A stretch of DNA of 37,142 nt from Candidatus Krumholzibacteriota bacterium. Lineage in GTDB: Bacteria > Krumholzibacteriota > Krumholzibacteriia > JAJRXK01. Of the stretch, positions 7,901 through 24,893 are shown piece after piece (positions within the stretch are counted from its first letter, which is position 1; each line of letters starts with the position of its first letter). Under the pieces are notes generated by a model, which was not told the origin of the DNA, ran no database searches, and was given only the letters and a program-made list of their open reading frames with translations. A program made the translations under genes and the position numbers. The stretch covers positions 1 through 37,142 of the forward strand of contig JAJDAC010000037.1 of the NCBI GenBank assembly GCA_029262065.1. Reading direction: 5' to 3'.

Positions 7901-8875
7901 TCACCGCTTTCCGCCGAACCGCCGCCTCACGTCGCCTACGCTTTCTCGTCGCGTCGGGACCTGCTGGCAACTCGATTCCGACGTGTGGTTCTGGTCGGCA
8001 TCGAGGAACTCCTGGAGTCTGGCCAGGCCGGTTCCGTCGTCGCCTATCTGTTCATCGAGCCAGGGCAGCATGAGCGAGGCCATTTGCGCCAACTGCTGTT
8101 TCCGTTGCGCCGCGTCGGTTGGGCATTGCCCCTCGAACCCATCGCAGGGGCTTCCAGCCTGCAGGAAACCACAATGGGTACCGCCAACAAGACGTACCAG
8201 ATACTTGCACGGCGATCCCACGATGGCGTGGTAGATCGCACCCTGGTTGGTGGCCAGCGGAGTGACGCAGTCGGCCAGACCGCCGATGGCGAGCACAGGC
8301 ATGGAGATGTTTGCCGCCGCAGCCACCGCGGAGGGCGCGGTTTCCAAGGCGGCCATGCTCACCAGTGTATCTATCCAAGGATTCTCGGCCGCGCCGAGTG
8401 TGGCGGCGCCACCGCCCATGGAGTGCCCACCGATGGCGGAGACGGTAGTATCAATAGCCTGGTAGAGAATCGAGCCCGCGTCGTCCGAGGCGGCCTGCAG
8501 GGCAACGATGACGAAGGCGAGGTCACGTCCGAGGGCGAGTGGGTTTGCTCCGAACGTACTCTCGGTTCGAGGCAATGCGATGACGAACCCAGCGGGAACC
8601 AACGCTTCCCACAACGGTGCGTAGCTGTCGACTCCCACGGTGAGTCCGTGGCCCCAGGCCAGGATCGGGTGTTCGCCGGCCGCGGGTGCAACGTCGGTGC
8701 CCGATACCTCCGCCGGATACTTGATGCGAACGCTGATGGATCGACCGTTCCGGTCGGGGTCGACGAACTCGATGGTCGTCGTGCCGATCTCGAACTGGCC
8801 GTAGGCTGGCCGGGCCCCAAAAAACAGGGCAGCGCACAACATGAGGGGTAGAACGACGGCAGGGCGCATGGGCAA
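7901..8875 (-). CDS. Secreted alpha/beta hydrolase (dienelactone-hydrolase/chlorophyllase-like)
   Basis: 324 residues with a signal peptide (VVLPLMLCAALFFGARPAYG). The fold signature is clear: HPILAWGHG oxyanion region, nucleophile elbow GHSMGGG with the catalytic Ser, a candidate acid in GGLADCVTP, and the catalytic His in GGTHCGF. Several Cys residues (SPCKY, THCGF, SPCDGF, GQCP) may form disulfides, fitting a periplasmic or extracellular enzyme. The substrate cannot be told; esterase or PAF-acetylhydrolase-like roles are possible. TTG at 8875 has AGGGAG at good spacing; the ATG at 8869 is an alternative start. The PQQ-propeller gene follows after 62 bp on the same strand. The C-terminal tail after about 300 is Arg-rich and poorly structured. 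Confidence 0.85.
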   Translation of the reverse strand: MPMRPAVVLPLMLCAALFFGARPAYGQFEIGTTTIEFVDPDRNGRSISVRIKYPAEVSGTDVAPAAGEHPILAWGHGLTVGVDSYAPLWEALVPAGFVIALPRTESTFGANPLALGRDLAFVIVALQAASDDAGSILYQAIDTTVSAIGGHSMGGGAATLGAAENPWIDTLVSMAALETAPSAVAAAANISMPVLAIGGLADCVTPLATNQGAIYHAIVGSPCKYLVRLVGGTHCGFLQAGSPCDGFEGQCPTDAAQRKQQLAQMASLMLPWLDEQIGDDGTGLARLQEFLDADQNHTSESSCQQVPTRRESVGDVRRRFGGKR

Positions 8876-8988: not shown

Positions 8989-11900
8989 TCACTGGATTCG
9001 CGCGATTTTCTGCGTGTAGGTCTCGGATCCGATTCTCAACTCGTAGAAGTAGATGCCCGAGGCGACCGGTTGACCTCGGTTGTCGGCTCCGCTCCAACGC
9101 ACCTCGTGGCGCCCGGGCGGTAGCTGGCCCTCGTGCAGCGTATCCACCAACCGGCCCGCCAGGTTGTACACGCGGACTCTGGTGTGGGCCGACTTTGTCA
9201 TTCCAAAGGAAATCTGGGTGTTGCCTCTGGCCGGGTTGGGGTAGGCGAAGTGGGTCACCGATTCATTCAACGGAAGCGGCTTCACGGCCGTGACGTTCAC
9301 GTCCAGACAGACAGACACTTCCGATGTAGAGCCTCCAAACACCGTGGCGGTGGCCGTCCAGAAATCAGCGGGACCGGCTACCGGCGCCGAAAAGCTGGCC
9401 AGTCCGGTTGCATCGGCTTCGGTCATCACCGTACCAAGGTACGTTTCGGCCGGGCCCTGGTCGCCGCCGGCACAGGCGGCGTTGCCGAACACCTCGACCA
9501 CGTACGTTTCGAATGGATCACCTTGAACCACGCCGGTGATGAATTCAGCGGCCGAATCCAGGTACTGCAACGTGGGCCGCGGAGGATCCATCGACACCAC
9601 GTCGATAGGAAGCCCCGTGTTGCCCGAAATGAAGTTTCCGCTGATTTCGGTTCGCGTTCCACCCGCTACCCGGATGCCCGCTCCCGCGTTGTTCTGCACC
9701 AGGTTGCCCCGGTCGCCGCTGGCCAGCCCGATCTTGTTGCGATCACCTGACTCGATCTCTATTCCGTTACCGCCGTTACCAACGAAGGCGTTCCCGGAGA
9801 TCAGGTTTTCGCTGCTTTGCACCACCAACCCATGGCCCGGAAACGCTTGGAACTGCAGGCCGCGGATGACGTTCCCGTCGGCCTGCAAGATCAGGCCGTC
9901 ACAGCCCACGCAGCTGCTCCCATCTACCACCAGCTGGGGCGACGCCAGCTTGAGTGTGAGCGCGGATTCGACCACGGTGGGAACCGTGAGCGACGGAAGC
10001 GCCTGTTGCAATACCGCGACCCCCGTCACCAGTTCCAACCGCAGTCGGGCGGCTTGGCCGGCGTTGAGGTTGAGAATGGCATCGCGCAGACTGCCCGGGA
10101 CAATATCGGCCAGCGTGTTCACCAGCACGGTGGGGCGATTGTCCACCAACGGGATCTCGATGTTCTTTGCACTGTTGGAGGCCACGGTGAAGACCGTGGG
10201 CCCGCTCTGCGTGATGTTCGGATGCACGACGGTGATCGTGTAGTCTCCAGGATCCACAGGAACCGAGAAGAAACCGTTCGCGTCGGTGGTTACTTTGCCC
10301 ACGCCCGAGATGTTGATCTTCTTCTGGGCGAAGGGTTTGTCTACCGCGGGATCGTTCAGCATGTCTTGTTCAAGGTCGAGGTAGACGTAGCCACTCAGAA
10401 CGGATCCAGGCACCAGCGCGAAGTTCTGAACGATGTCGTTACCGGATTCCGCCGCGCTGCGGATCTCCAGGATGCCGCCCGGTGGGCTCAGAATGCGGAA
10501 TTCGTCGGTGGGGTGGCTGACCGTGAAGGAGCTACTTCCAAGCAGGGCTCCGTACTGACGACCCACGCCGTAGCCTTCGAACGTCTGCGGTTCGGTGCCC
10601 AGCGCCCCGTCGATTCTCACCTTATCTGGCGCCACCACGGTATCGATCAGGCGGTCGAACTCTCCGTTCTGGTTCACGTCGAGAAACACGATGCCGCGAA
10701 CCGAGCGACGCGGAGAATCGATTCCCAGATAGTTGTTCTCGATGACATCGCCGGCGGCAATGGTAAGCGTGGGCAATGGGGTTGGAAAAGCAGGCTGCCA
10801 ACCCGGAAACGGTATCGGAGCGATGTTGTACGTCCCGGGAACCAGCACGAATTCGAAGTTGCCGTCCTCGTCCGAAACAACGGTGGTGGTGCCGGGAACG
10901 TCGACGCCCACGGCCACGACCTGCACGCCGCGCAGGGCCGGGTCGGCCACGTCGAGTACGCCGTCGCCATCGATGTCGTGTACCACCTGGCCGACGATAC
11001 GACCCGACACATCGCTGAACCCAAGGTTCAACGTGGTCGTGGTGTTGGGCTGCACCTCCGCTAGGACGCCCGCATTCGGCTGACCATTGGCCGGACCGTT
11101 CGTGTGGATCCAGCCCCCAGGCAACTGCGGTTGAACGAAATAGACTTGGGGAGCCGTCAGACCGGGAAAGGAGTAGTTGCCGCCGGCGTCGCTCACCGTG
11201 GAAGCAATTGTACTACCCTGATCGTCGAGCAGATCGACGGTCCATCCCTGGATAGGTAGCTCTCCCGCGGTCAACTGGCCGTCGGTGTTGTCATCGTCAA
11301 AGAGTACGCCCTGAATCGTCCCGGGCTGCGCGGTCAGAGTGACCAGCACCTGGGGACTCTGGTAGATAGTGTTCACGATGAATCCGACGCCACCGAGCAA
11401 CGTGGTCGTATGAAACGCTCCTGTCACCGAGCCCGCGGTCAGGACCGGGCCCATGAAGCTTCCCTGGGTTCGCGTATCGTTGATACGCACTTCCAGCGTC
11501 CCGTTGAGAAGTTGGGCGCCCGACATGGTCAATTGGTCCGCTGCGAACTCATGGACATCCCAGGTGACCTTCGCATCGGCGTCCCAGTCCCAGGCGCCGA
11601 TTACTTCCAGGATTCCAACCTCGGCTGGATCACCCGGATCGACGGTGCCCTGCATGTTCACACGACCACCCAGCGAGGATTCCACTCTCCCGTTGCCGCC
11701 CAGGACCCCGGTGGTGCTGAAGATCAACTCCTCGAACAACACACGCACTTTCGATGTGGCATCCAGGAGCCAGTTTCCGCCGATGGTGCCGCCGTCGCGG
11801 ATGGCTAGCGTCACTCCCGGCTCCACGTGCAACAGGCTTCCGGGGTTTGTTTGCAGGTCGGCTTCGATCGAGGGCGTGGTACCGATGGCCACACGGAAGT

Positions 11901-14340
11901 GAAGTTCGCCGTTGAGTTCGAATACCTCCAGAGCGCTGGTCAAGGGGTCTTCCTTGATGCCCAAATTACTGCCGGTCTGGATGACGTTGAACTCGGAAAG
12001 CGTCCCCGTGATAACACGAGAATTACCCTCGATGACGATGTCACCTCCGTACCAGTAGGACACGCCCTGCATGGTAAAGAATGTAGAACCCTTGAACACG
12101 GTGGCGTCGACGTTCGTATCCGGTTCGAACGTGACGCCGTTCTCGGCCGTAATCGGGTTTCCTCCCGAAAACGTTCCGCCCTCGGAGCGAAGCGGCTTCT
12201 TGAATGTTGCCGCGTTGGCGGCCGAGAGTTCTCCGCGAACGGTAGTGCGCACGTCAACCTCGTCGAAGATGACCATGCGTCCATTCGTATCGATGTAGAT
12301 CTGTCCGTCACCTTGGGCTGGCGTGGCGGGGTTCAACGTAGTCGTTCCGGCGGTCACGTTGAGTTCGCAGCCGAATCCCACATGCACATTTCCCTCGATG
12401 CTTCCGTCGTCACGGAATTCGATCTTGGGGTAGATGGTGCCCAAGTCCAGCACCAGCGAAGAAGTGTCGGAGAACAGGAACGGTACCTCGATGCGCGGAG
12501 GCAAGGCGGCGTGGTTGCGCACGCTCACCATTCCGCGCGGTAGGAAGAAACCGTTGGCGATGTTGGTCATGGGCAGTGCGCTGGCTACGTGGTCCAGGTA
12601 GAAGCTGGTTCCGACCGCGGTCTCGAGGGTCGCGTCCTGAAGGTTGATGGGGCCATTGAACCAGTTGGCATCGTTGGAGCAGGTGAAGTCCACGTTGATG
12701 TCATTGGCGTCGACCGCCGAGCCAGAGTCGAAATCAGTGATGCCCGTGGAGTTGATCCAGCCGTTTCCGCTGAAGGTGCCGCCGCCGGCGCGGAGTCCGC
12801 CCGAGAACTCAGTGGGATCGTCCGTGATCAGCGTCCCGGAAATAAGCATGTAGGCTTCGAGCGCGGCGAGGAACGTGGTCTCCAGTGTCGCCGCACTCTG
12901 TACTTCGATCGTTCCCGGCCCCGAGGCGTTGAATGGGTCGAGCATGCTGTGATTGCCTTGTCGCAGATACAGATCACCATCGAGGACGACACTGCCCTGG
13001 AGATTGGAGTCATTCTCCAACTGGAAGATGGCTCCCGCCTCGATGTTCAGGGTTCCGCCGGTCACCAGGTCGAACCAGGTAAAGACGCGCGGAGTCTGAC
13101 TTCCCGCCACGATCCTCAGCAAACCCTCGATGCGAAGGGAGGCCTCGTTCGCGGCCGGGCTGATGGTTTGATTCTGGAGCGAAGAGTCCCAGATAAATGA
13201 ACCCGAGGCCGGGACGACGATGTCGGAGCCTTCTTCGAGCACCAATCCCGCTCCAAGAACACTCATCCCGTTCGTGAAGGTGAAGTCTCCGTCCAGCAGG
13301 GTCGGAGAGTTGGTGTCGAACAGCGCCGATCCCGTGAGTGTTACGGGACCGTTGGTGGCGGTCAGGGAATTGTTGATTCCCGTGAAATTCAGATCGCCGT
13401 TGAAAATTCCCAAGCTGATGTTGATGATGGCCTCGGACAGCGTCACCTTCACCAGGTCCACGGCCAAAGATAACGGGCCGCTGGCGATCACGGGAATGTC
13501 GGCGCTCGCGGAAAATCCCGTGTCGAAAACCGCCTCGGTTTGATTACCGTTGAAGCGCAGGCCGTTGGGAAACCCTCCACCGGTCGTGGTGTAGGTTCCG
13601 CGAAGGGTGTGCGTACCCTCGCGATGCCAGACGTCCACTCCAACCGCCAGCGACATGCTGCCGCTGTTGTCACTACCGGAGTTGAACTCCACATCAGCCG
13701 CCGAGACGTAGCCGCCCAGGTTTTGCACGGAGACGTCGAAGGCAATGGGGGCCAGTAGGTTGGTACTGCCGCCGAAGGTGAACACGAAATTGGTGGGGCT
13801 GTCGGCCGTGGGGTCCGTGCCGCTTTGTGGGATCGCGTTGTGGGTGATGCCTCGTTTTGATTTGCTGCCGCTGGGCACGACGTCGAAATCAAAACCCGCC
13901 TGATGGATCACCCGTCCACTGGCGCCAAACACGATTGCACTGGGTTCCCAGACCACGTCGCAGTTGAAATCCACGATTCCCTGGATGGTCTTGATGTCGT
14001 TCGCGGTCAGGGTCGCACCACCCAGAATCGTCCAGGTGCCGCTTCCCGCGTGTTCGCCCAGTCCCCAGTCCAGAAGCCCGTTCACAGTGAGGTTGGCCGA
14101 ACCAGAGATGATGGCGGAGTCCAGGGTAAGGCCCGCAGTCTGGGCGGGAACGTCCAGGGCGACCGATATGCCGCCATCCAGCAGAACATCGTCGAGCGCG
14201 GTGGGGACCGCATTGGTACTCCAGTTGAGTGGGTCGCTCCAGTTGGTTCCATCACCGCCACCGTCCCAGGTGATGGCTTGAGCAACTGTGGGGAGCACCA
14301 ATAGCAGCAGAACTGAGAGCCAACGTGATTGAATAGGCAT
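8989..14340 (-). CDS. Giant secreted beta-helix / SdrD-like / FlgD-like C-terminal domain protein
   Basis: 1783 residues from the ATG at 14340, chosen because it begins a clean signal peptide (SVLLLLVLPTVAQA); an upstream GTG at 14418 would add 26 non-signal residues. The mature N-terminus begins TWDGGGDGTNWSDPLNW, typical of autotransporter-like or PEP-CTERM-type beta-helix proteins, then about 950 residues of beta-solenoid strands rich in GGT, NITG and SGT patterns. SdrD_B/CarboxypepD_reg-like modules start near residue 1005 (GVLFDDDNTDGQ, and a second GQVVHDIDGDGVLDVAD). A second right-handed helix lies near 1415-1580 with SLRDAI and NxIxGNxFxGN repeats. The last 85 residues hold YPNPARG...VYNLAGRLV...SGIYFYELRIG, a FlgD-Ig/type A sorting-like domain. 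Likely a surface or secreted adhesin/structural protein; no enzyme motif is seen. Confidence 0.88.
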   Translation of the reverse strand: MPIQSRWLSVLLLLVLPTVAQAITWDGGGDGTNWSDPLNWSTNAVPTALDDVLLDGGISVALDVPAQTAGLTLDSAIISGSANLTVNGLLDWGLGEHAGSGTWTILGGATLTANDIKTIQGIVDFNCDVVWEPSAIVFGASGRVIHQAGFDFDVVPSGSKSKRGITHNAIPQSGTDPTADSPTNFVFTFGGSTNLLAPIAFDVSVQNLGGYVSAADVEFNSGSDNSGSMSLAVGVDVWHREGTHTLRGTYTTTGGGFPNGLRFNGNQTEAVFDTGFSASADIPVIASGPLSLAVDLVKVTLSEAIINISLGIFNGDLNFTGINNSLTATNGPVTLTGSALFDTNSPTLLDGDFTFTNGMSVLGAGLVLEEGSDIVVPASGSFIWDSSLQNQTISPAANEASLRIEGLLRIVAGSQTPRVFTWFDLVTGGTLNIEAGAIFQLENDSNLQGSVVLDGDLYLRQGNHSMLDPFNASGPGTIEVQSAATLETTFLAALEAYMLISGTLITDDPTEFSGGLRAGGGTFSGNGWINSTGITDFDSGSAVDANDINVDFTCSNDANWFNGPINLQDATLETAVGTSFYLDHVASALPMTNIANGFFLPRGMVSVRNHAALPPRIEVPFLFSDTSSLVLDLGTIYPKIEFRDDGSIEGNVHVGFGCELNVTAGTTTLNPATPAQGDGQIYIDTNGRMVIFDEVDVRTTVRGELSAANAATFKKPLRSEGGTFSGGNPITAENGVTFEPDTNVDATVFKGSTFFTMQGVSYWYGGDIVIEGNSRVITGTLSEFNVIQTGSNLGIKEDPLTSALEVFELNGELHFRVAIGTTPSIEADLQTNPGSLLHVEPGVTLAIRDGGTIGGNWLLDATSKVRVLFEELIFSTTGVLGGNGRVESSLGGRVNMQGTVDPGDPAEVGILEVIGAWDWDADAKVTWDVHEFAADQLTMSGAQLLNGTLEVRINDTRTQGSFMGPVLTAGSVTGAFHTTTLLGGVGFIVNTIYQSPQVLVTLTAQPGTIQGVLFDDDNTDGQLTAGELPIQGWTVDLLDDQGSTIASTVSDAGGNYSFPGLTAPQVYFVQPQLPGGWIHTNGPANGQPNAGVLAEVQPNTTTTLNLGFSDVSGRIVGQVVHDIDGDGVLDVADPALRGVQVVAVGVDVPGTTTVVSDEDGNFEFVLVPGTYNIAPIPFPGWQPAFPTPLPTLTIAAGDVIENNYLGIDSPRRSVRGIVFLDVNQNGEFDRLIDTVVAPDKVRIDGALGTEPQTFEGYGVGRQYGALLGSSSFTVSHPTDEFRILSPPGGILEIRSAAESGNDIVQNFALVPGSVLSGYVYLDLEQDMLNDPAVDKPFAQKKINISGVGKVTTDANGFFSVPVDPGDYTITVVHPNITQSGPTVFTVASNSAKNIEIPLVDNRPTVLVNTLADIVPGSLRDAILNLNAGQAARLRLELVTGVAVLQQALPSLTVPTVVESALTLKLASPQLVVDGSSCVGCDGLILQADGNVIRGLQFQAFPGHGLVVQSSENLISGNAFVGNGGNGIEIESGDRNKIGLASGDRGNLVQNNAGAGIRVAGGTRTEISGNFISGNTGLPIDVVSMDPPRPTLQYLDSAAEFITGVVQGDPFETYVVEVFGNAACAGGDQGPAETYLGTVMTEADATGLASFSAPVAGPADFWTATATVFGGSTSEVSVCLDVNVTAVKPLPLNESVTHFAYPNPARGNTQISFGMTKSAHTRVRVYNLAGRLVDTLHEGQLPPGRHEVRWSGADNRGQPVASGIYFYELRIGSETYTQKIARIQ

Positions 14341-14423
14341 CGATAGAGATTCCCGTGACTGAAGGGATGGGAGACGCTGATACCCCCCCTCGCGCAGAAT
14401 CTCGATACGAGTGCTCACGGTTT

Positions 14424-15120: not shown

Positions 15121-15912
15121 ATGACTGGTGTTCGGGCGAAACCCTGGCCGCTGCTGGCGCTCGCCGCGTTGGCCAGCCTGGCCATGTTGGCAACGACGGC
15201 CCGGAGCGAACCTTCTGCCACCCGGGGCAAGGCTGTCTACGACAGCTACTGCGTAATCTGTCACGGGGATCAGGGGGACGGAAAAGGGTTGATGGGGATC
15301 ATCCATCGGGCCCAGCAGAACGGGTTCGTGGTGACGGTCTACCCTCGGGATTTCACGGCGGGAGTGTACAAATTCCGCACGACTGCGTCGGGTGATCTCC
15401 CTACCGATGAAGATCTCATTCGCACCGTAACCAATGGGATCGTTCGTTCTGGCATGCCCTCACACAAGGATCTCACGCGTGCCCAGATTGAGGACGTGGT
15501 CGAGTATATAAAGTCGTTCTCGCCCCGATGGACGGAGGAACTGCCCGGAGACGTTGTCGAGATCGGGCCTCCGCCGAAGCACGTGGGCACGAAGGCTTCG
15601 GTCCAGAAGGGTAACGAGATCTACGCTCTCATGAAATGTGGTGAGTGCCACGGAGAGACCGGATTGGGCGACGGTCCTTCCTCGGCGAACCTGAAAGACG
15701 ACTGGGGCGATCGGATTGTTCCCTTCGATTTCACGAGTGGTCCCTTGAAGGGAGGCACCCGCACCGAGGATCTCGCGCGCACGTTTCTCACGGGTTTGGA
15801 TGGCACTCCCATGCCGTCGTACGACCAGACCATCACCCTCGATCAGCAGTGGGATCTCGTCTCGTACTGCCTCTACTTGATGCAGGGTGGCGACGAGGGT
15901 AAGTCCAAGTAG
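15121..15912 (+). CDS. Di-haem periplasmic cytochrome c of the nos operon (NosC-like role)
   Basis: 263 residues from the ATG at 15121, which has GGAGGT ten bases upstream; an earlier in-frame start at 15058 would bury the signal peptide. The signal sequence (PLLALAALASLAMLATTARS) is followed by two class I cytochrome c modules with haem-attachment motifs CVICH (44-48) and CGECH (173-177). Candidate distal Met ligands are in SGMPSH (about 112) and TPMPSY. It lies 37 bp before nosZ on the same strand. Clade II nos clusters commonly encode c-type cytochromes that feed electrons to NosZ, so an electron-donor role is likely by context; donor partners are not shown by sequence. The gene name nosC is not assigned because the family is loosely defined. 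Confidence 0.9.
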   Translation: MTGVRAKPWPLLALAALASLAMLATTARSEPSATRGKAVYDSYCVICHGDQGDGKGLMGIIHRAQQNGFVVTVYPRDFTAGVYKFRTTASGDLPTDEDLIRTVTNGIVRSGMPSHKDLTRAQIEDVVEYIKSFSPRWTEELPGDVVEIGPPPKHVGTKASVQKGNEIYALMKCGECHGETGLGDGPSSANLKDDWGDRIVPFDFTSGPLKGGTRTEDLARTFLTGLDGTPMPSYDQTITLDQQWDLVSYCLYLMQGGDEGKSK

Positions 15913-15949: not shown

Positions 15950-17758
15950 ATGACAATGAGAATCAACAAGCGCGGGCGCGCCTGGACTCTGGCGGTGTTC
16001 GTCCTCGTGGTCTTTGGGGCGCTCATCGCGTTTTACCGAACACCCGACGATTCGTTCGCAGACAGCAAATCCGGCCTTCGTGACAAGGTTCTTCCGGGCG
16101 AACTGGATGACTACTACGGCTTCTTCAGCGGTGGCCATTCGGGTGAGATTCGTATCGTGGGCATACCGTCGATGCGCGTCATGAAGCGTGTGCCCGTGTT
16201 CAACCTCGATTCCGGCAGTGGCTGGGGCATAACGAACGAGAGCAAGGCGCTGCTCAAGGGGCAGGTGGTAGGCGACACGCACCACGTGCAGGGTTCCTAT
16301 GTGGATGGGACCTACGATGGCAAGTTTCTGTGGGTGAATGACAAGTCGAACAACAAGCTGGCGCGCATCCGAACGGATTACATGGAAGTAGACGCCATCG
16401 TCGAGATACCCAACAGCCAGGGTACGCACGGAACGTTTCCCCAGCGTTACCCGCAGACCGATTGGATCATCACCAACAGCGAATTCCGGACGCCCTACGC
16501 CACCGACCTGGCGGGCATGTCTGACAAGGCGAACTTCCACGGTGTGCATACCATTACCGACGCGCACAAGATGGAAGTCATTGCCCAGGTGACCACCAGC
16601 GTCAACCTGGACCTGGCGGCCACGGGGTATCGGGGCAAGTACTCGTTCGCTACCTCCTACAACTCCGAAGGGGGAGTAACCCTCTCGGAGATGCTGGCGA
16701 AAGACAGCGACTATCTGGTGGTCTTCAACTGGGACCGCATCAAGAAACGCCTGGCCGACGGCAACTTCGAGACCGTCAACGGCGTGAAGATGATGGATGG
16801 AAAGGCCGGGAGCGACCTTACTCTCTACATCCCGGTTCCCAAGAACCCGCACGGGGTGAACATCTCGCCCGACGGCAAGTATGCCATTGCGTCGGGCAAG
16901 GTGTCGCCTACGGCCACGGTGGTTGCGCTGGACAAACTCGACGATGCTTTCGCCGGAAAGATCCAGCCCATCGATTGCGTGGTCGCTCAGCCAGAAATCG
17001 GTCTGGGACCTCTTCACACCACGTACGATGGCAACGGAAACGCGTTCACGTCCTTGTTCATCGACAGCCAGATCGTGAAATGGAACATCCAGGCGGCCAT
17101 CGACGGCTACAAGAAGCCCGGCGCCAAGTCTCCCGTGATCGATCGGTTGGACGTCCACTACCAGGTGGGTCACACCATGGCGTCCATGGCCGAGACCAAA
17201 GAGGCCGACGGCAACTTCCTGATCTCCCTGAACAAGATCTCCAAGGATCGATTCCTGAACGTGGGCCCCCTCAAGCCGGAAAACGACCAGCTTGTGGATA
17301 TCAGCCAGAAGAAGATGCGTCTGATCAAAGACGAGCCGTCCTACATCGAGCCCCACGATTGCATCATCGTGCGCCGGGACATCATCGAGCCCCTGGTCAA
17401 AGACCGGGTAAAGATGGACGAGCACCCCAATTTCACGACCGAGAATTCCATCGAGAGAGACGGGAAAAAGGTGACCGTGCGCCTCACGGCCAACGCTCCC
17501 GTGTTTGGGATCCAGGAAGTCGCCGTGAAGCAGGGTGATGAGGTGACGTTCTACGTGACCAACAACGATGAGATCCCGGATCTCACGCACGGGTTCGCCA
17601 TCTCGAACTACAACATCAATTTCGTGGTGGGTCCGTACCAGACGAAATCGGTGACGTTTGTCGCCGACAAGCCGGGTTTGTACTGGATCTACTGCACGAA
17701 CTTCTGCCACGCGCTTCACCTGGAGATGCGACTGCGTTTCCTGGTGGAAGCCGCCTAG
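15950..17758 (+). CDS. nosZ: Nitrous oxide reductase, clade II (Sec-dependent) NosZ
   Basis: 602 residues; reduces N2O to N2 in the periplasm. The N-terminus has a Sec-type signal or anchor (WTLAVFVLVVFGALIAF after KRGR) and no twin-arginine motif, the mark of clade II enzymes. All seven expected CuZ histidines are visible: His111 and His112 in DTHHVQ, His160 in SQGTHG, His301 in NPHGVN, His356 in GPLHTT, His408 in VGHTM, His469 in EPHDC. The C-terminal cupredoxin domain keeps CuA ligands His547 (LTHGF), Cys582, Cys586, His590 and Met593 in YCTNFCHALHLEM; the residue aligned with the Trp of clade I is Asn. Full length, no truncation. It is followed nine bases later by the NosR-NosD fusion, so one operon is expected. 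Confidence 0.98.
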   Translation: MTMRINKRGRAWTLAVFVLVVFGALIAFYRTPDDSFADSKSGLRDKVLPGELDDYYGFFSGGHSGEIRIVGIPSMRVMKRVPVFNLDSGSGWGITNESKALLKGQVVGDTHHVQGSYVDGTYDGKFLWVNDKSNNKLARIRTDYMEVDAIVEIPNSQGTHGTFPQRYPQTDWIITNSEFRTPYATDLAGMSDKANFHGVHTITDAHKMEVIAQVTTSVNLDLAATGYRGKYSFATSYNSEGGVTLSEMLAKDSDYLVVFNWDRIKKRLADGNFETVNGVKMMDGKAGSDLTLYIPVPKNPHGVNISPDGKYAIASGKVSPTATVVALDKLDDAFAGKIQPIDCVVAQPEIGLGPLHTTYDGNGNAFTSLFIDSQIVKWNIQAAIDGYKKPGAKSPVIDRLDVHYQVGHTMASMAETKEADGNFLISLNKISKDRFLNVGPLKPENDQLVDISQKKMRLIKDEPSYIEPHDCIIVRRDIIEPLVKDRVKMDEHPNFTTENSIERDGKKVTVRLTANAPVFGIQEVAVKQGDEVTFYVTNNDEIPDLTHGFAISNYNINFVVGPYQTKSVTFVADKPGLYWIYCTNFCHALHLEMRLRFLVEAA

Positions 17759-17767
17759 GGAGCCAGC

Positions 17768-20700
17768 GTGCCATCTACCCAATCAAGGCACCGAACGGGT
17801 GGCTTGCTTGGTTGTGTCCTGATGATTCTGCTTGTGGGCGGTCTTCGTACCGCTCACGGGCAGATGAGTTTCCTGAAGTCCTCCCAGGACTATGAGTTGA
17901 GTGATGTCATGGCCGAGGCGGACGAATTCGTCCGCCTCGATGCATATTGGGAAGCCTACGCCACGTCGCCTGATGGCGACCGTCAGCTGGTGGGCTACGT
18001 ATTCCTCTCCGATGATCTCGTCGAGATTCCGGCGTACTCGGGCAAGAGCATGAATACCCTCATTGGCCTGGATCTCGACGCGGCCATTACGGGAATCAAG
18101 ATCGTCCAGCATTCCGAGCCCATCGTGCTGTTGGGACTCAAGGAAGGGGTGATCTACGCGTTCGGCGACCAGTACGTGGGCAAGAGCATCCGCGAGCGGA
18201 TCATCATCAGCGGCGTACCGCGCGAGGGTTATACGGCCATCGACGCCATCACCGGTGCCACGGTCACCGCCATCGCCGGCAACGCCACCATCCTGGAGGC
18301 CAGCCGCCTGGTGGCCAAGCAAACGGGCCTCGTAAAAGGCGCGGCTATCTCGAATCGGATACTCCGAACCGATTTCGTGGAGAAATCCTGGAATGCGCTC
18401 GTTGCCGAGGGATCCATCGCGAACCTGGTGGTTACTCCGCAGGACGTCTCGGACGAGGGAGACGAGCCCGTCGTGGATCTCTGGTTCACGATCCTCAACC
18501 CGCCGACCATCGGCATCAATCTACTGGGAGAGCATCAGGCCAAGCTCATGGAGGAACGCGTGGCCCAGGGACACGCGGCGGTATTCATTGGTAGCCGCGG
18601 TTCGATCTCGTTCAAGGGATCGGGGTTCGCGCGCGGGGGAATCTTCGACCGCTTTTCCCTGGAGCAGGGTGGTGATGTCTTCATCTGCAAGGACGTTGAT
18701 TACATCAACGTGACCCGGCTGGATGATGACATGGCTCCACAGTTCGAAGAAGGTGGCATCTTCTTCGTCGGGGGAAGCTTCGATCCCACCGCGGACTTCA
18801 CGTTCCACCTGACTATTCCATTCCGCGTGAACGACGTAAGGAGCTACGCGACATTCAGTGAGCCGTTCCACCTGCCCGGTGAATACGTGGAGGAAGAAGT
18901 TCCGTACTGGAAGATGCGTTGGCAGGCCGAAGTGGTAACGCTGATTGCCTTTCTGCTCTTCGTGGCGTCGGTTGTGCTCCAGTTCCTGTTCCGGATGCAA
19001 TTGGCCCGCAGGCAACAGTTGTTGCACCCCATCCGCATCTTCACCTGGTCGGTGGCGGCGATCGTGGTGGGACTGGGTTGGAAAGCGCAACCGTCGACCA
19101 CGCAGATGCTCACGTTCTTCACTTCAGCGATCGAGGGTCGTTTTCCTGCGGAGATCTATCTATCCGAGCCCATGATCTTCCTTTTCTGGTGCATCATCGT
19201 TCTTTCGACCCCCTTGTGGGGGAGAGGGTTTTTCTGCGGCACTCTGTGTCCGTACGGCGGGTTGCTTGAGGTGCTGAGGCTCCCCTACGAGAAGCTTGTG
19301 CCCAAGTCGCGACGGAAGGCCATCGACGAGTGGACTCCCCCTACCAATCTCCGCCGCTTGAAGTACGTGGTTCTGGTGGTCGTGTTGGCGGTGTCGGTGG
19401 TCAGTTTGACCGCGGCCGAGGTTCTGGCCGAAGTGGAGCCCTTCAAGACGTTCATTCTGCGACTGGTGCGGCCGCAGATGTTCGTCCTCTATTTCGTCGC
19501 GGTGACGCTTGCTTCCGTGGTGTGGGCTCGTGGCTTCTGTCGCTTTGTCTGTCCTTTGGGCGCTGCGCTCGCGCTACCGTTTGGCCGGCCCTTGGTGAAG
19601 CTCGACCGCTACGATCACTGCGGCACCTGTCGTATCTGCGAGCACGAGTGCCTTCCGCGGGCTATCACCCGCGAGGGTGATATTGACCTGCGAGAGTGTT
19701 TCCAGTGTTGGGATTGTCAGGACACCATGCAAAACACGGCCCGATGTCCCGTGCTGATCAATCCCGAGGCTACCAGGAAGTCAGATCTGGCGAAGGTCGC
19801 GAAGGCCACGACGACCACCAGCGTGCTCTTTCTGTTTCTGGCCGCCGGTCCGGCGTTCGCGTCGACCTGGACCGTTAGCCAACCCGCGGACTCGCTCCAA
19901 TCCGTGGTAAACAGCGCCGCGCTCGGCGATACAGTGAAAGTGGCCGCGGGGATCTACCCTGGCCAACTGCTCGTTCGCGAGGGTCTGGTAATTCTGGGCG
20001 ATGAGGGGGCCATTTTGGATGGGGGCGGGCAAGGCCACGTCGTGATGATCGATGAGTCCGAGGTAACGTTCTCGGGCTTCACGGTGCGCGCCAGTGGCGA
20101 CGACATGGAGAATGCCGACGCCGGTATCTGGGTGAGTCAGGAGTCCTCGGGTGTGCGGATACTGCACAACACCATCATCGACTGTCGATTCGGAATCTGG
20201 ATCAACGGGAGTCCGACGATCGAGATCGTGGGCAATACGGTGAAGGGGCGAGCTCATCTGGACAAGAACTCGCGCGGTGACGGTATCCATTTCTGGGATA
20301 CCCATGGCGCGATAGTCACCGACAATTACATCGTGGACGCTCGCGATGGGATCTACATGGAACTCTCTACCGAGTGCCAGATTCTTCGCAACGATATTCG
20401 CCGCTCCCGGTACTCAATCCATACCATGTGGTGCGATCGCAGTACCTACAACGACAACGTGGCATCGGAAAACCTGGTGGGGCTGGCTTTGATGTTCTCC
20501 AAGGGTCTCGAGGCCGTGGGCAACACCGTCCACAACAACGCGACGCACGGTCTGTTGCTCATCCAGGTTACGCGCAGCGTTGCCCGTGACAATCGCGTGA
20601 TAGGAAACACCAAAGGAATGTTCGTGTACAATTCCCTCTACAATACGATTGAGGGCAATCTCATCGCCAACAACTCCCTGGGCATCCACTATTGGGCCGG

Positions 20701-21109
20701 CTCCGAAGACAACGCGATTACAAACAATTCTCTTGTGCAGAACAAGATACAAGTGAAGTTCGTGGCTGCGAAGGATCAGACATGGGCCGGGAACTTCTGG
20801 ACCGACTACACGGGGTGGGACGGCAACGGGGATGGCCACGGGGACACGGCCTATCGCTCCCACACGCTGGTGGATGCGTTGCTGTGGGAGTTCCCGGCGG
20901 CGAAGTTGTTGTTGGCCAGCCCCGCCTTCCAGGTGCTGGCGGGGGCGGAGCGGACCTTTCCGGTACTAAGCGCCCCGAAGGTGATCGATCCCACGCCATT
21001 GATGCACCCGACAATAAAGAATTGGCGCGAGGTCCTCGCGCAGTATCCACCGTTGCCCCAGAACTATTACGGCACGCTCCAAAAGCTGCCCCACATTCCT
21101 GGAGGCTGA
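17768..21109 (+). CDS. NosR-NosD fusion: flavin/Fe-S membrane protein joined to periplasmic copper-maturation protein
   Basis: 1113 residues, GTG start with GGGAG five bases before it. Residues 1 to about 665 are NosR/NirI-like: signal segment (12-30), periplasmic FMN-binding domain with the flavinylation motif DAITGAT (Thr165), transmembrane helices from about 388 to 590, the CxxxCP motifs Cys490/494 and Cys591/595, and a cytoplasmic ferredoxin with Cys618/621/624/628 and Cys644/647/650/660. Residues 700-1113 are NosD-like: a right-handed beta-helix (GIWVSQ, NTIIDCRFGIWING, NDIRRSRYSIHTMW) and the family ending GNFWTDYTGWDGNGDGHGDTAYR. The junction (671-699) is RKSDLAKVAK then VLFLFLAAGPAFA, an internal signal-peptide-like segment. 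NosR is thought to pass electrons to NosZ; NosD helps CuZ assembly. The frame runs through without stop or obvious internal start. Confidence 0.93.
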   Translation: MPSTQSRHRTGGLLGCVLMILLVGGLRTAHGQMSFLKSSQDYELSDVMAEADEFVRLDAYWEAYATSPDGDRQLVGYVFLSDDLVEIPAYSGKSMNTLIGLDLDAAITGIKIVQHSEPIVLLGLKEGVIYAFGDQYVGKSIRERIIISGVPREGYTAIDAITGATVTAIAGNATILEASRLVAKQTGLVKGAAISNRILRTDFVEKSWNALVAEGSIANLVVTPQDVSDEGDEPVVDLWFTILNPPTIGINLLGEHQAKLMEERVAQGHAAVFIGSRGSISFKGSGFARGGIFDRFSLEQGGDVFICKDVDYINVTRLDDDMAPQFEEGGIFFVGGSFDPTADFTFHLTIPFRVNDVRSYATFSEPFHLPGEYVEEEVPYWKMRWQAEVVTLIAFLLFVASVVLQFLFRMQLARRQQLLHPIRIFTWSVAAIVVGLGWKAQPSTTQMLTFFTSAIEGRFPAEIYLSEPMIFLFWCIIVLSTPLWGRGFFCGTLCPYGGLLEVLRLPYEKLVPKSRRKAIDEWTPPTNLRRLKYVVLVVVLAVSVVSLTAAEVLAEVEPFKTFILRLVRPQMFVLYFVAVTLASVVWARGFCRFVCPLGAALALPFGRPLVKLDRYDHCGTCRICEHECLPRAITREGDIDLRECFQCWDCQDTMQNTARCPVLINPEATRKSDLAKVAKATTTTSVLFLFLAAGPAFASTWTVSQPADSLQSVVNSAALGDTVKVAAGIYPGQLLVREGLVILGDEGAILDGGGQGHVVMIDESEVTFSGFTVRASGDDMENADAGIWVSQESSGVRILHNTIIDCRFGIWINGSPTIEIVGNTVKGRAHLDKNSRGDGIHFWDTHGAIVTDNYIVDARDGIYMELSTECQILRNDIRRSRYSIHTMWCDRSTYNDNVASENLVGLALMFSKGLEAVGNTVHNNATHGLLLIQVTRSVARDNRVIGNTKGMFVYNSLYNTIEGNLIANNSLGIHYWAGSEDNAITNNSLVQNKIQVKFVAAKDQTWAGNFWTDYTGWDGNGDGHGDTAYRSHTLVDALLWEFPAAKLLLASPAFQVLAGAERTFPVLSAPKVIDPTPLMHPTIKNWREVLAQYPPLPQNYYGTLQKLPHIPGG

Positions 21110-21110
21110 G

Positions 21111-22001
21111 ATGATCCGGTTGGAAAACATTTCCAGGCAGTACGGCGGTGTGCACGCCTTGCGGTCGATCGACCTGGAGCTGCAGACGGGGGAGTGGTTG
21201 GGCCTGGCCGGTCCCAACGGTTCGGGCAAGACCACGATGCTCCGGATCATTCTGGGTCTTACCCAGCCTTCGAGTGGCCAAGTCTACCTGGAGGGCGAAC
21301 TGCCCGATGCGCAGGCCTGGATCCGCTTTCGAAAGAAGCTGGGGTTCATGCCCGAGCGAATATCGTTCTACGACAACCTGACGGGCAAGGAGACTCTGGA
21401 GTTCCTGGCGTCCGTGCGTGGGGCGTCGCCGACGGTCATCGAGGAACTGCTGGAGAAGGTGGGGTTGTCAGACGCATCGTCGCGCAAGGTGGGCGGCTAT
21501 TCCAAGGGAATGCGACAGCGTCTCAATTTCGCCCAGGCGCTCCTGGACGACCCGGAGGTGCTCATTCTCGACGAGCCTACTGAGGGGCTCGATCCCCATG
21601 CGGTCCGCCACTTCTTCACGTTGCTGAAGAGCGATAGACCGCGGACGGTGCTTCTGTCTTCACACCGTCTAAGCGAGCTGGAAACGCGCGCCGATCGTAT
21701 CTGCGTTCTGGGCGAAGGCGACATCAAGGCACTTGGTTCTCCGCGGGATCTCATGGCCGCTACGAAACAACGGTCGCGTGTTCACATCGTAGTGGTCAAC
21801 GGAACCATGGACTCGCACGGACCCCAACTGGCGGAAATGGGTTTTGCTCACGCCAATGGAGTTCCCGGTCATCTCCGCGTCGCGATTCCCTACGCCGAGA
21901 AGGTAGCGTTCTTGAACCGGCTGCATGCTAGCGGTGCTGAGCTCAAGGACGTCTGGATTGAAGAAACCGATCTGGAGGAGGCCTACTTTGAAGCGCACTG
22001 A
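21111..22001 (+). CDS. nosF: NosF copper-maturation ABC transporter ATPase
   Basis: 296 residues, ATG one base after the preceding stop with TGGAGG upstream. Complete ABC ATPase: Walker A GPNGSGKTT (34-42), signature YSKGMRQR (130-137), Walker B LILDEP (151-156), D-loop GLD, switch His185 in SSHRLSE. With NosY it should form the transporter that, together with NosD, supplies sulfur or another factor for CuZ assembly in NosZ. Position directly after the NosD half and before NosY identifies it as NosF. Its stop lies inside the next gene (14-base overlap), which suggests translational coupling. Confidence 0.95.
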   Translation: MIRLENISRQYGGVHALRSIDLELQTGEWLGLAGPNGSGKTTMLRIILGLTQPSSGQVYLEGELPDAQAWIRFRKKLGFMPERISFYDNLTGKETLEFLASVRGASPTVIEELLEKVGLSDASSRKVGGYSKGMRQRLNFAQALLDDPEVLILDEPTEGLDPHAVRHFFTLLKSDRPRTVLLSSHRLSELETRADRICVLGEGDIKALGSPRDLMAATKQRSRVHIVVVNGTMDSHGPQLAEMGFAHANGVPGHLRVAIPYAEKVAFLNRLHASGAELKDVWIEETDLEEAYFEAH

Positions 22002-22839
22002 TATCGTGGCCGCCATCGCCCGCAAGGAGATTACGGACCGGCTACGCAACAAGTGGATCCTGACGGTTTCCGTGCTGCTGGTGGTGGCGGCGTTCTCGAT
22101 TTCGTTTCTGGGGGCCGTTCCCGTGGGCCTGGCCGGGTTCCAGCGCAGTGGCATGATCATGGTGAGCCTGATCAACCTGGCTATCTATCTGGTCCCCTTG
22201 CTGGCGCTGGCGCTCGGTGCGTTTGCCATCATCGACGAACGTGAGCGCGGTACGCTGGACCTGATCCTTGCCTACCCCGTGCGCCCTCGCGAGTACCTGG
22301 CGGGCAGCTTTCTGGGACTCGCGGTCGCCCTGGGCGCGGCCATTCTGGTTGGATTCGGACTCGCGGGAGCGGTGGTGATCTTCCAGGGCGGCGTGGTGGA
22401 GATCGGACAGTACCTGCTGTTCCTGGTCATGACGCTGCTGCTGGGAGTGATGTTCCTGGCCATCTCGTACACGATCTCAATACTCGCCCAGGACAAGGGC
22501 CGCGCGCTGGCGGTTTCACTCCTGGTATGGATTGGTTCCGTGTTCCTCTACGACATCGTGTTGGTTGGTGCTCTGGTGGCCTCCCAGGGGAAGATTCCCG
22601 AAAATCTGTTCTCGGGTGCGCTGATGCTGAACCCCGTCGACCTGTATCGCCTGCTGCTCTTCTCGCTGGTAGACAGCGCCCGTTCGCCGATTGGGCTGCT
22701 TGAGGGCGACCTTCCCAAGATGATGACCGCGCCGATATTGGCCGCCGCGTTCTTCGCGTGGCTGGCGGCGCTTCTACTGGTGACGTTTCGTGTTTTTGAA
22801 CGCGGTGTGTCGGCCGACCTGTGGTCGCGATCGAGATAA
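21988..22839 (+). CDS. nosY: NosY ABC transporter permease
   Basis: 283 residues from a TTG (21988) that has GGAGGAGG seven bases upstream and gives the expected start LKRTDIVAAIARKEITDRLRNKW. An ATG at 21925 would add 21 residues lying wholly in the nosF frame overlap and is less likely. Six transmembrane segments are visible: WILTVSVLLVVAAF; INLAIYLVPLLALALGAF; FLGLAVALGAAILVGFGLAGAVV; LLFLVMTLLLGVMFLAISY; ALAVSLLVWIGSVFLYDIVLVGALV; and the last helix ILAAAFFAWLAALLLVTF. ABC-2 type permease of the NosY family (DERERGTLDLILAYPV is typical). It pairs with NosF; role as in the NosDFY maturation complex. Confidence 0.93.
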   Translation: MKRTDIVAAIARKEITDRLRNKWILTVSVLLVVAAFSISFLGAVPVGLAGFQRSGMIMVSLINLAIYLVPLLALALGAFAIIDERERGTLDLILAYPVRPREYLAGSFLGLAVALGAAILVGFGLAGAVVIFQGGVVEIGQYLLFLVMTLLLGVMFLAISYTISILAQDKGRALAVSLLVWIGSVFLYDIVLVGALVASQGKIPENLFSGALMLNPVDLYRLLLFSLVDSARSPIGLLEGDLPKMMTAPILAAAFFAWLAALLLVTFRVFERGVSADLWSRSR

Positions 22840-22863: not shown

Positions 22864-23574
22864 ATGCTAAAGATGCTTTCACCCGGTCACCGGACCTTCG
22901 CTGTCGCTATCGGCTTGTTTCTGGGTACGCACATCTGCGGTGGACCAATATCCGCAACGGCCAGCTCGGCGGGTGAGTTGACCGGCAAGGTTCTGGCGTC
23001 GGGTCAGGACGCGAAAGGCGCGGCTCAATGCGTTGTTTGGATCGAGGGGATAGAAGGTGGCACCGTGCCCGAGGTCGACACCGTCATCACGCACGAGGGC
23101 GGCGCCATGAAGCCTTCCGTGAGCTTGGGCTTCGTGGGTCGGGACTTCGTCCTTCGTAACGACAACGCCGATTTCCACAACACCCATCTGTACATGCACC
23201 TGGCGTATCAGGAACTGGTCTCGGATCGACCCCTGCACTACGGCGCTACTGTATACAACATTCCGCTACCGGTGCAGGGGAAGGAAATCAAGCGGCCCAT
23301 CAAGCCGTACCACCGTTACCGAACAGAAACGGGTTTTATCGAGGCCATCTGCAATCCCCATCCATCGGAGAAAGCGTATGTCCTGGTGTTTGACCATCCG
23401 TACTGCGCTCTGACCGAAGAAGACGGCAGCTATTCGATCAAGGGCATTCCGGCGGGCCGCTACCCGGTGAAGGTTTTCCGCGACGGTGTGGTGACCAGAT
23501 TGGACGACGTCGAGGTGACCGCGGGCGTCACCGAGTTCGATCTGAACGTCGAGTCGATAGATGGGGGTGAATGA
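22864..23574 (+). CDS. Exported cupredoxin-like/carboxypeptidase-regulatory-like protein at end of nos operon
   Basis: 236 residues with a signal peptide (FAVAIGLFLGTHICGG region). The middle resembles the plastocyanin-like proteins in which a cupredoxin fold is combined with a regulatory beta-sandwich: VLRNDNADFHNTHLY (His105, His108) and AICNPHPSEKAYVLVFDHPYCALTEEDGSYSIKGIP is split here into its parts Cys163, His166 and Glu169 followed by the sandwich. A His, Cys, His, Glu or Met set could bind type 1 copper, but the usual axial Met is absent at the ligand loop. It starts 24 bp after nosY on the same strand, so it is likely the last nos gene. Copper relay or electron transfer to NosZ is inference; the family is not a standard nos gene. 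Confidence 0.75.
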   Translation: MLKMLSPGHRTFAVAIGLFLGTHICGGPISATASSAGELTGKVLASGQDAKGAAQCVVWIEGIEGGTVPEVDTVITHEGGAMKPSVSLGFVGRDFVLRNDNADFHNTHLYMHLAYQELVSDRPLHYGATVYNIPLPVQGKEIKRPIKPYHRYRTETGFIEAICNPHPSEKAYVLVFDHPYCALTEEDGSYSIKGIPAGRYPVKVFRDGVVTRLDDVEVTAGVTEFDLNVESIDGGE

Positions 23575-24240: not shown

Positions 24241-24263
24241 TACCTCCAGTGATTGGAGTCGAC

Positions 24264-24893
24264 ATGCAATCGCGAGACCGTCGTCGCGCGGCCGGGGTCC
24301 TGCTGTTGTCCGCCCTGCTGACGACTGTCTCGTGGTTGTGGTCGAGTTACCCCGCCATGGCTGGCGAACCCCCAAGTCGCGACGTCGAGTCGCATCGCTA
24401 CTTTTCCGAGTTTGCGTTGAACAACTGGAGCGGCGACGAGTTCACTCTCGACTCCCTTCGTGACGCCGCGGCGATCATCGTCTTCACGTACGCCAAGTGC
24501 GTGTTCGGCTGCCCGATGATCACGTTCTACCTGAAGAACCTGGATCAGGAACTGGGCCATCCCGAAGATCTCCGGTTCGTCCACATCTCCGTCAACCCGC
24601 AGTTGGACAATGCGCAGGAAATACAGAAGCATTTCCTGCAGTTCGAGATCGATCCTACCAAGGACCCAAGATGGGTCTTTCTGAACGGTCCCGAGGATAG
24701 GATCGAGGCCCTCCTTGCCGACAATGACATCACAGTGAAGAAGACACCCATGAAAGACGGCGTTCTGATCGACCACACCATACTGGTCCAGGTTGTTGGA
24801 AGAGATAGTCGAATCGTGGCGGAGTTCCCCACCTACCTTTGGGACGAAGAGAGGATGGCAGATGCATTACAAGCAGCGCTCGAACCGAGGTAG
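24264..24893 (+). CDS. SCO1/SenC-family copper chaperone
   Basis: 209 residues from the ATG at 24264 (GGAG five bases upstream; an earlier GTG at 24249 is less likely). Signal or membrane anchor RRAAGVLLLSALLTTVSWLW, then a thioredoxin-like SCO domain with the copper motif CVFGCP (Cys79, Cys83) and the distal ligand His171 in IDHTIL. Family members bind copper and assist CuA assembly in cytochrome oxidase; by context this one could metallate CuA of NosZ, which is inference. Its last 32 bases overlap the start of the transglutaminase gene, so the two are translated from one transcript. Confidence 0.93.
   Translation: MQSRDRRRAAGVLLLSALLTTVSWLWSSYPAMAGEPPSRDVESHRYFSEFALNNWSGDEFTLDSLRDAAAIIVFTYAKCVFGCPMITFYLKNLDQELGHPEDLRFVHISVNPQLDNAQEIQKHFLQFEIDPTKDPRWVFLNGPEDRIEALLADNDITVKKTPMKDGVLIDHTILVQVVGRDSRIVAEFPTYLWDEERMADALQAALEPR

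Follow-up and report, generated by a model that had tools for sequence, protein, structure and literature searches.

Among the proteins that support N2O reduction in bacteria are NosR and NosD. According to PMC7660919, the FMN domain of NosR is periplasmic, its C-terminal iron-sulphur domain is cytoplasmic, and the protein supports the supply of electrons to NosZ; NosDFY matures CuZ. Little is understood of how NosR makes contact with NosZ and with the complex that matures it. In beta- and gammaproteobacterial clade I operons, nosR and nosD are separate genes that, in most cases, either overlap in different frames (ATGA type) or lie a short gap apart. A fusion of NosB with NosL has been published for Flavobacterium and Dyadobacter (PMC9697520) and is a precedent for the welding of adjacent nos accessory genes, although its partners differ from those discussed here and it belongs to clade II.

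We analyzed a 37,142-nucleotide stretch of DNA from a “Candidatus Krumholzibacteriota” genome (the window). It carries a clade I-type operon in the order cytochrome c, nosZ, nosR:D, nosF, and nosY, in agreement with the betaproteobacterial order nosZ-R-D-F-Y-L. The locus resembles the clade I operons of Cupriavidus, Eleftheria, and Contendobacter in its nosR-nosD order, its domains, and the position of the NosD signal, but nosR and nosD form one gene. This gene is an uncommon variant of a known N2O-respiration system, of which a second, independent example exists.

One frame for NosR and NosD

The fused gene lies on the forward strand, as do the parts of the operon described below, and is a single open frame of 1,113 codons that runs without an internal stop from a GTG at 17768, with GGGAG ahead of it, to a TGA at 21109. 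A sequence-only reading of this DNA had proposed that NosR and NosD share one 1,113-residue protein; the uninterrupted frame and full-length matches to both families confirm this. In profile searches, the NosR part covered residues ∼41 to 665 (NF046105, 449 bits, E = 3e-134) and the NosD part residues 710 to 1080 (TIGR04247, 399 bits against a cut-off of 300, model positions 1 to 377 of 377), and the order of Pfam domains (FMN_bind, Fer4_5, and then NosD) agrees. The NosR score misses the NF046105 equivalog cut-off of 1,000 bits, as do the NosRs of Cupriavidus, Eleftheria, Roseibium, and Contendobacter (595 to 832 bits). This cut-off describes a narrow reference group, and because NosRs of other genera also fall below it and the window protein carries all of the NosR sequence motifs, the miss is not diagnostic and does not count against membership. 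The fused protein is both the sole NosR and the sole true NosD of its genome, in which the next match to the NosD model is a 44-bit beta-helix, versus 152 bits for the fused protein.

The NosR part begins with a signal or transmembrane segment at residues 11 to 29 (17798 to 17854) found by hydropathy scan, where the AF2 model places a helix over residues 11 to 35. The FMN-binding domain follows at residues 94 to 169 (18047 to 18274), based on an FMN_bind match. We looked for the NosR flavinylation motif of the periplasmic FMN_bind domain, [S/T]GA[S/T]x[S/T], and found T162-G-A-T-V-T167, in which GATVT is invariant relative to four separate NosRs; Thr167 (18266 to 18268) is predicted to be flavinylated, and ApbE homologues encoded elsewhere in the genome are candidates for carrying it out. 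Two CX3CP motifs, C490 to P495 (19235 to 19252) and C591 to P596 (19538 to 19555), occupy invariant alignment columns (C490/C494/P495 and C591/C595/P596). In the predicted cytoplasmic ferredoxin domain (C618 to C660; 19619 to 19747), the alignment shows eight invariant cysteines (C618/621/624/628 and C644/647/650/660), which are expected to hold two 4Fe-4S clusters. Compared with the four separate NosRs, 12 of 12 motif cysteines are invariant when C490, C494, C591, and C595 are counted with the ferredoxin set.

The NosD beta-helix domain occupies residues 699 to 1113 (19862 to 21106). Besides the TIGR04247 match, it has a sequence match to the solved NosD 7o0y of NosDFY (E = 3e-73), and its predicted structure matches the folds of 7osf and 7o0y (TMt, 0.78 to 0.81; 34 to 36% identity). 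The AF2 model of the fused protein is confident in both domains (mean pLDDT, 85) and gives no confident placement of one relative to the other (pTM, 0.57).

The junction and the fate of NosD

NosR homology stops near residue 665, leaving a junction of only about 33 residues, and NosD homology starts near residue 706. The junction comprises a residual NosR tail and the NosD signal peptide (19760 to 19861), as judged by alignment and by pLDDT values of <50 over residues 659 to 694. Residues 670 to 698 align with the signal peptides of separate NosDs and contain an n-region with K/R, the h-region SVLFLFLAAG, a G-P break, and a c-region AFA, followed by mature STWTV. The apolar run is 15 residues long, versus mostly 10 to 16 in separate NosD signal peptides. 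The charges, hydrophobic core, and AFA end noted by the sequence-only reading are all present, with one correction: by alignment, the core is NosD's ordinary signal peptide minus the start codon, with no linker added. A cleavage-like site had been placed near residue 698, and there AFA directly precedes STWTV, aligned with the signals of separate NosDs; the predicted cut falls after A698 (KSDLAKVAKATTTTSVLFLFLAAGPAFA followed by STWTV), with Ala at positions −3 and −1.

The spacing between the conserved NosR and NosD cores is 123 nt in the window, 50 nt below the minimum of 173 nt among 51 adjacent two-gene pairs of relatives. Since a hidden stop or frameshift would leave the spacing unshortened, this points to a small deletion and not to a missed stop codon. 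GC3 stays at ∼0.68 to 0.88 in the main part of the frame and across the junction, where coding periodicity is unbroken and both alternative frames are interrupted nearby by stops (19755 in one; 19678, 19684, and 19876 in the other). We consider it very unlikely that the frame is an assembly or sequencing artefact in which a stop or frameshift between two genes was missed. The locus does lie on a single MAG contig, and an error of one base within the CCC at 19748 could mask the +1 stop at 19755, but continuous periodicity, a contig composition that agrees with its genome, a spacing shorter than in any adjacent pair measured, and the same domain fusion in a second genome (G105, below) all speak against such an error. 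So does the region ahead of the NosD signal peptide, where no ATG, GTG, or TTG with a good SD was found. A stop hidden by a sequencing error between residues 660 and 690, raised as a doubt earlier, is not borne out: the contig sequence has no in-frame stop or frameshift at the junction, and the spacing is at least 50 nt shorter than in any of the 51 adjacent pairs. Those relatives do have two separate genes, as had been anticipated, but this leaves the fusion standing, given how far the window spacing falls below that of their 51 pairs. The fused gene is very probably real.

A variant in which the frame is fused but NosD also or mainly arises from an internal start, leaving the proteins effectively separate, appears highly improbable. 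An AGGA stands four bases ahead of the ATG at 19727, and initiation there would keep the signal peptide whole; this AGGA, however, falls in NosR-constrained codons just past the NosR CxxC motif, and the start would put ∼30 extra residues before the signal. The alternative GTG codons at 19751 and 19823 have no SD.

The probable explanation is a genuine fusion of nosR and nosD by a small deletion, yielding one precursor from which signal peptidase probably releases NosD. The deletion would have removed the tail end of nosR, with its stop codon, along with the start codon of nosD, while sparing the NosD signal peptide, so that a single precursor would be translated. Its NosR part would insert in the membrane with the FMN domain outside and the ferredoxin inside. 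Because the chain should emerge from the membrane into the cytoplasm ahead of the junction, the retained NosD signal would be correctly oriented to re-enter the translocon; this orientation supports the earlier proposal that re-insertion places NosD in the periplasm. Signal peptidase I would most likely cut after Ala698, and the freed NosD would join NosFY. The NosR part would then deliver electrons to NosZ, NosD would mature CuZ together with NosFY, and synthesis as one chain would fix the ratio of NosR to NosD at 1:1.

Judged by its sequence, with a short apolar core and an AxA end, the signal is more likely to be cut by signal peptidase I, which would release an ordinary NosD; the intact AxA end by itself argues mildly for release. 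Processing is not assured for a signal preceded by 660 residues and a cytoplasmic domain, and if the protein stays uncut, the junction would be a further membrane anchor that tethers NosD to NosR and puts the electron donor at the NosDFY-NosZ assembly site. We regard this as possible but unlikely. NosD is joined to a membrane protein in unrelated lineages (to NosR twice and to NosB), and co-localisation could be useful; against this, the window junction resembles ordinary NosD signal peptides, its apolar run ends after just 15 residues and leads into a G-P break followed by a perfect AFA, and AF2 leaves residues 659 to 694 disordered, with a helix only at residues 686 to 691 and none of transmembrane length. 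An uncut protein would physically link the machinery that builds CuZ to the machinery that feeds it electrons. The natural fusion is a ready-made construct in this respect: one band or two would indicate whether NosR and NosD work tethered, and processing of the fused gene's product would reveal whether cleavage occurs at an internal signal peptide that follows a polytopic membrane protein.

Other fusions involving NosD

The expectation that NosR and NosD are normally separate proved correct. None of the 80 nearest named relatives has the fusion, and nosD, where it is on the same contig, is a separate frame; usually the two genes are adjacent, in different frames, and overlap at an ATGA-type junction (−4). 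These 80 loci come from an alignment-based contig scan (a scan with a single protein sequence returned none). In the phylum sample, the window genome was the only one of 80 to bear NosR, and the exact window fusion is known from this one genome. Among viral contigs, we found no relative.

Three further samples (369, 396, and 399 genomes) included ∼75 genomes with a strong match and yielded one true NosR-NosD fusion. The protein, of 1,267 aa, is encoded without a stop at L124:1275-5078 in G105, a genome sampled from the class to which the Contendobacter MAG belongs, and matches both families. Like the window protein, it has NosR followed by NosD in one frame, with a hydrophobic junction that ends in AAA (AFA in the window). 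It differs in that its NosR is of a long-tail subtype with extra C-terminal helices; the G105 protein is 37% identical to the window protein and is phylogenetically separate. In a tree of 108 NosRs, the G105 sequence nests among Burkholderiales that have separate genes (SH-aLRT, 100 at the eight-row enclosing node), and the G105 fusion thus arose independently of the window fusion. The G105 branch is longer (0.5) than those of its neighbours. At the G105 junction, the last NosR transmembrane helix merges into the c-region of the NosD signal (VALVSPAAA followed by ATLQV); the helix there is longer (residues 844 to 862; KD 2.39 in a hydropathy scan), which is a point in favour of an uncut, tethered protein.

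Candidates were drawn from open-frame lengths, which read through stops and served as a lead only, and each sequence was then read directly. In Contendobacter and a close MAG (G080/G081; L035 and L036, ∼8016 to 8037), nosR and nosD are in-frame and split only by two TGAs 12 nt apart, so these were rejected as fusions; the arrangement is one step short of one. Also rejected were G182, G321, and G1235, which showed separate ORFs (L119, L125) or multiple stops (L176), and the long NosD ORFs of L012, L016, and L020, whose upstream part is an open but non-coding-looking extension.

Three genomes of the window's class encode NosB-NosD fusions (G046, G042, and G038; L010, L013, and L152). The upstream partner is a multi-helix protein bearing LNHYIGM, a motif that PMC9697520 describes for NosB, and NosD lies behind a basic, hydrophobic, signal-like junction. 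As in the window, a membrane protein and a signal-peptide-like junction precede NosD, directly after nosZ (position checked in G046 and G038), but the partner is NosB and the operon has a clade II, Sec-type nosZ. Given these NosB-NosD proteins and the published NosB-NosL (PMC9697520), the joining of adjacent nos accessory genes recurs, and the membrane proteins to which NosD has become joined, each encoded ahead of it, differ. We consider it doubtful that tethering, by putting electron transfer at the NosDFY-NosZ maturation site, is the reason for the repeated fusion of NosD behind an upstream membrane component (two lineages with NosR, another with NosB).

In the open-licence papers searched, we found no description of a NosR-NosD fusion, an absence that is weak evidence, nor any of NosB-NosD fusion proteins, and the flavinylation surveys among them made no mention of NosD. 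The suggestion that the arrangement is undescribed is consistent with this, but the fusion is not unique, in view of G105 and the NosB-NosD proteins. Fused nos genes are a possible source of wrong calls in annotation pipelines and marker counts.

The operon and its genome

Contamination of the bin was rejected as a source of the operon: an AcrB gene ∼2.4 kb downstream is 87% identical to that of a same-family genome, and the nos region has a tetranucleotide distance of 137, within the genome's own range (104 to 171), versus 262 to 343 for the pieces of other genomes tested. The window operon is of clade I type by TIGR04244, and two class relatives that were checked have clade II nosZ. In the tree of 108 NosRs, the very long branch of the window sequence makes the position of that sequence uncertain; acquisition of the operon by an old transfer is possible.

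Upstream of the fused gene are a c-type cytochrome with two CytC domains (15121 to 15912; ORF readable from 15058) and the clade I-type nosZ (15950 to 17758; TIGR04244, 810 bits against a cut-off of 625). NosZ scores as Tat-dependent clade I, yet its N-terminus (MTMRINKRGRAWTLAVFVLVVFGALIAFY), where we found no twin arginine (RR), resembles a Sec signal or an uncleaved anchor. Downstream, domain matches identify a nosF-like ABC ATPase (21111 to 22001), whose SD, GGAGG, shares bases with the 3′ end of the fused gene, and a nosY-like ABC-2 permease (21925 to 22839), whose true start may lie downstream of 21925. A promoter scan gave nothing above chance, and a terminator scan gave a marginal excess (11 sites versus 7.3 expected) that was not used.

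Cupriavidus and Eleftheria have NosL and ApbE/NosX in or near the operon, whereas the window genome (95.6% complete) has no PF05573 match to nosL anywhere. In this region (22864 to 23574 and 24249 to 24893), the usual nosL slot after nosY is filled by a CarboxypepD_reg/cupredoxin-like protein (cupredoxin likeness judged by eye), beyond which lie a TlpA-like gene on the opposite strand and an SCO1 copper protein. These are possible substitutes for copper delivery. Upstream of the operon, the reverse strand (8989 to 14418) encodes a secreted-looking protein of 1,809 aa with SdrD_B, beta-helix, and Por secretion-tail domains.
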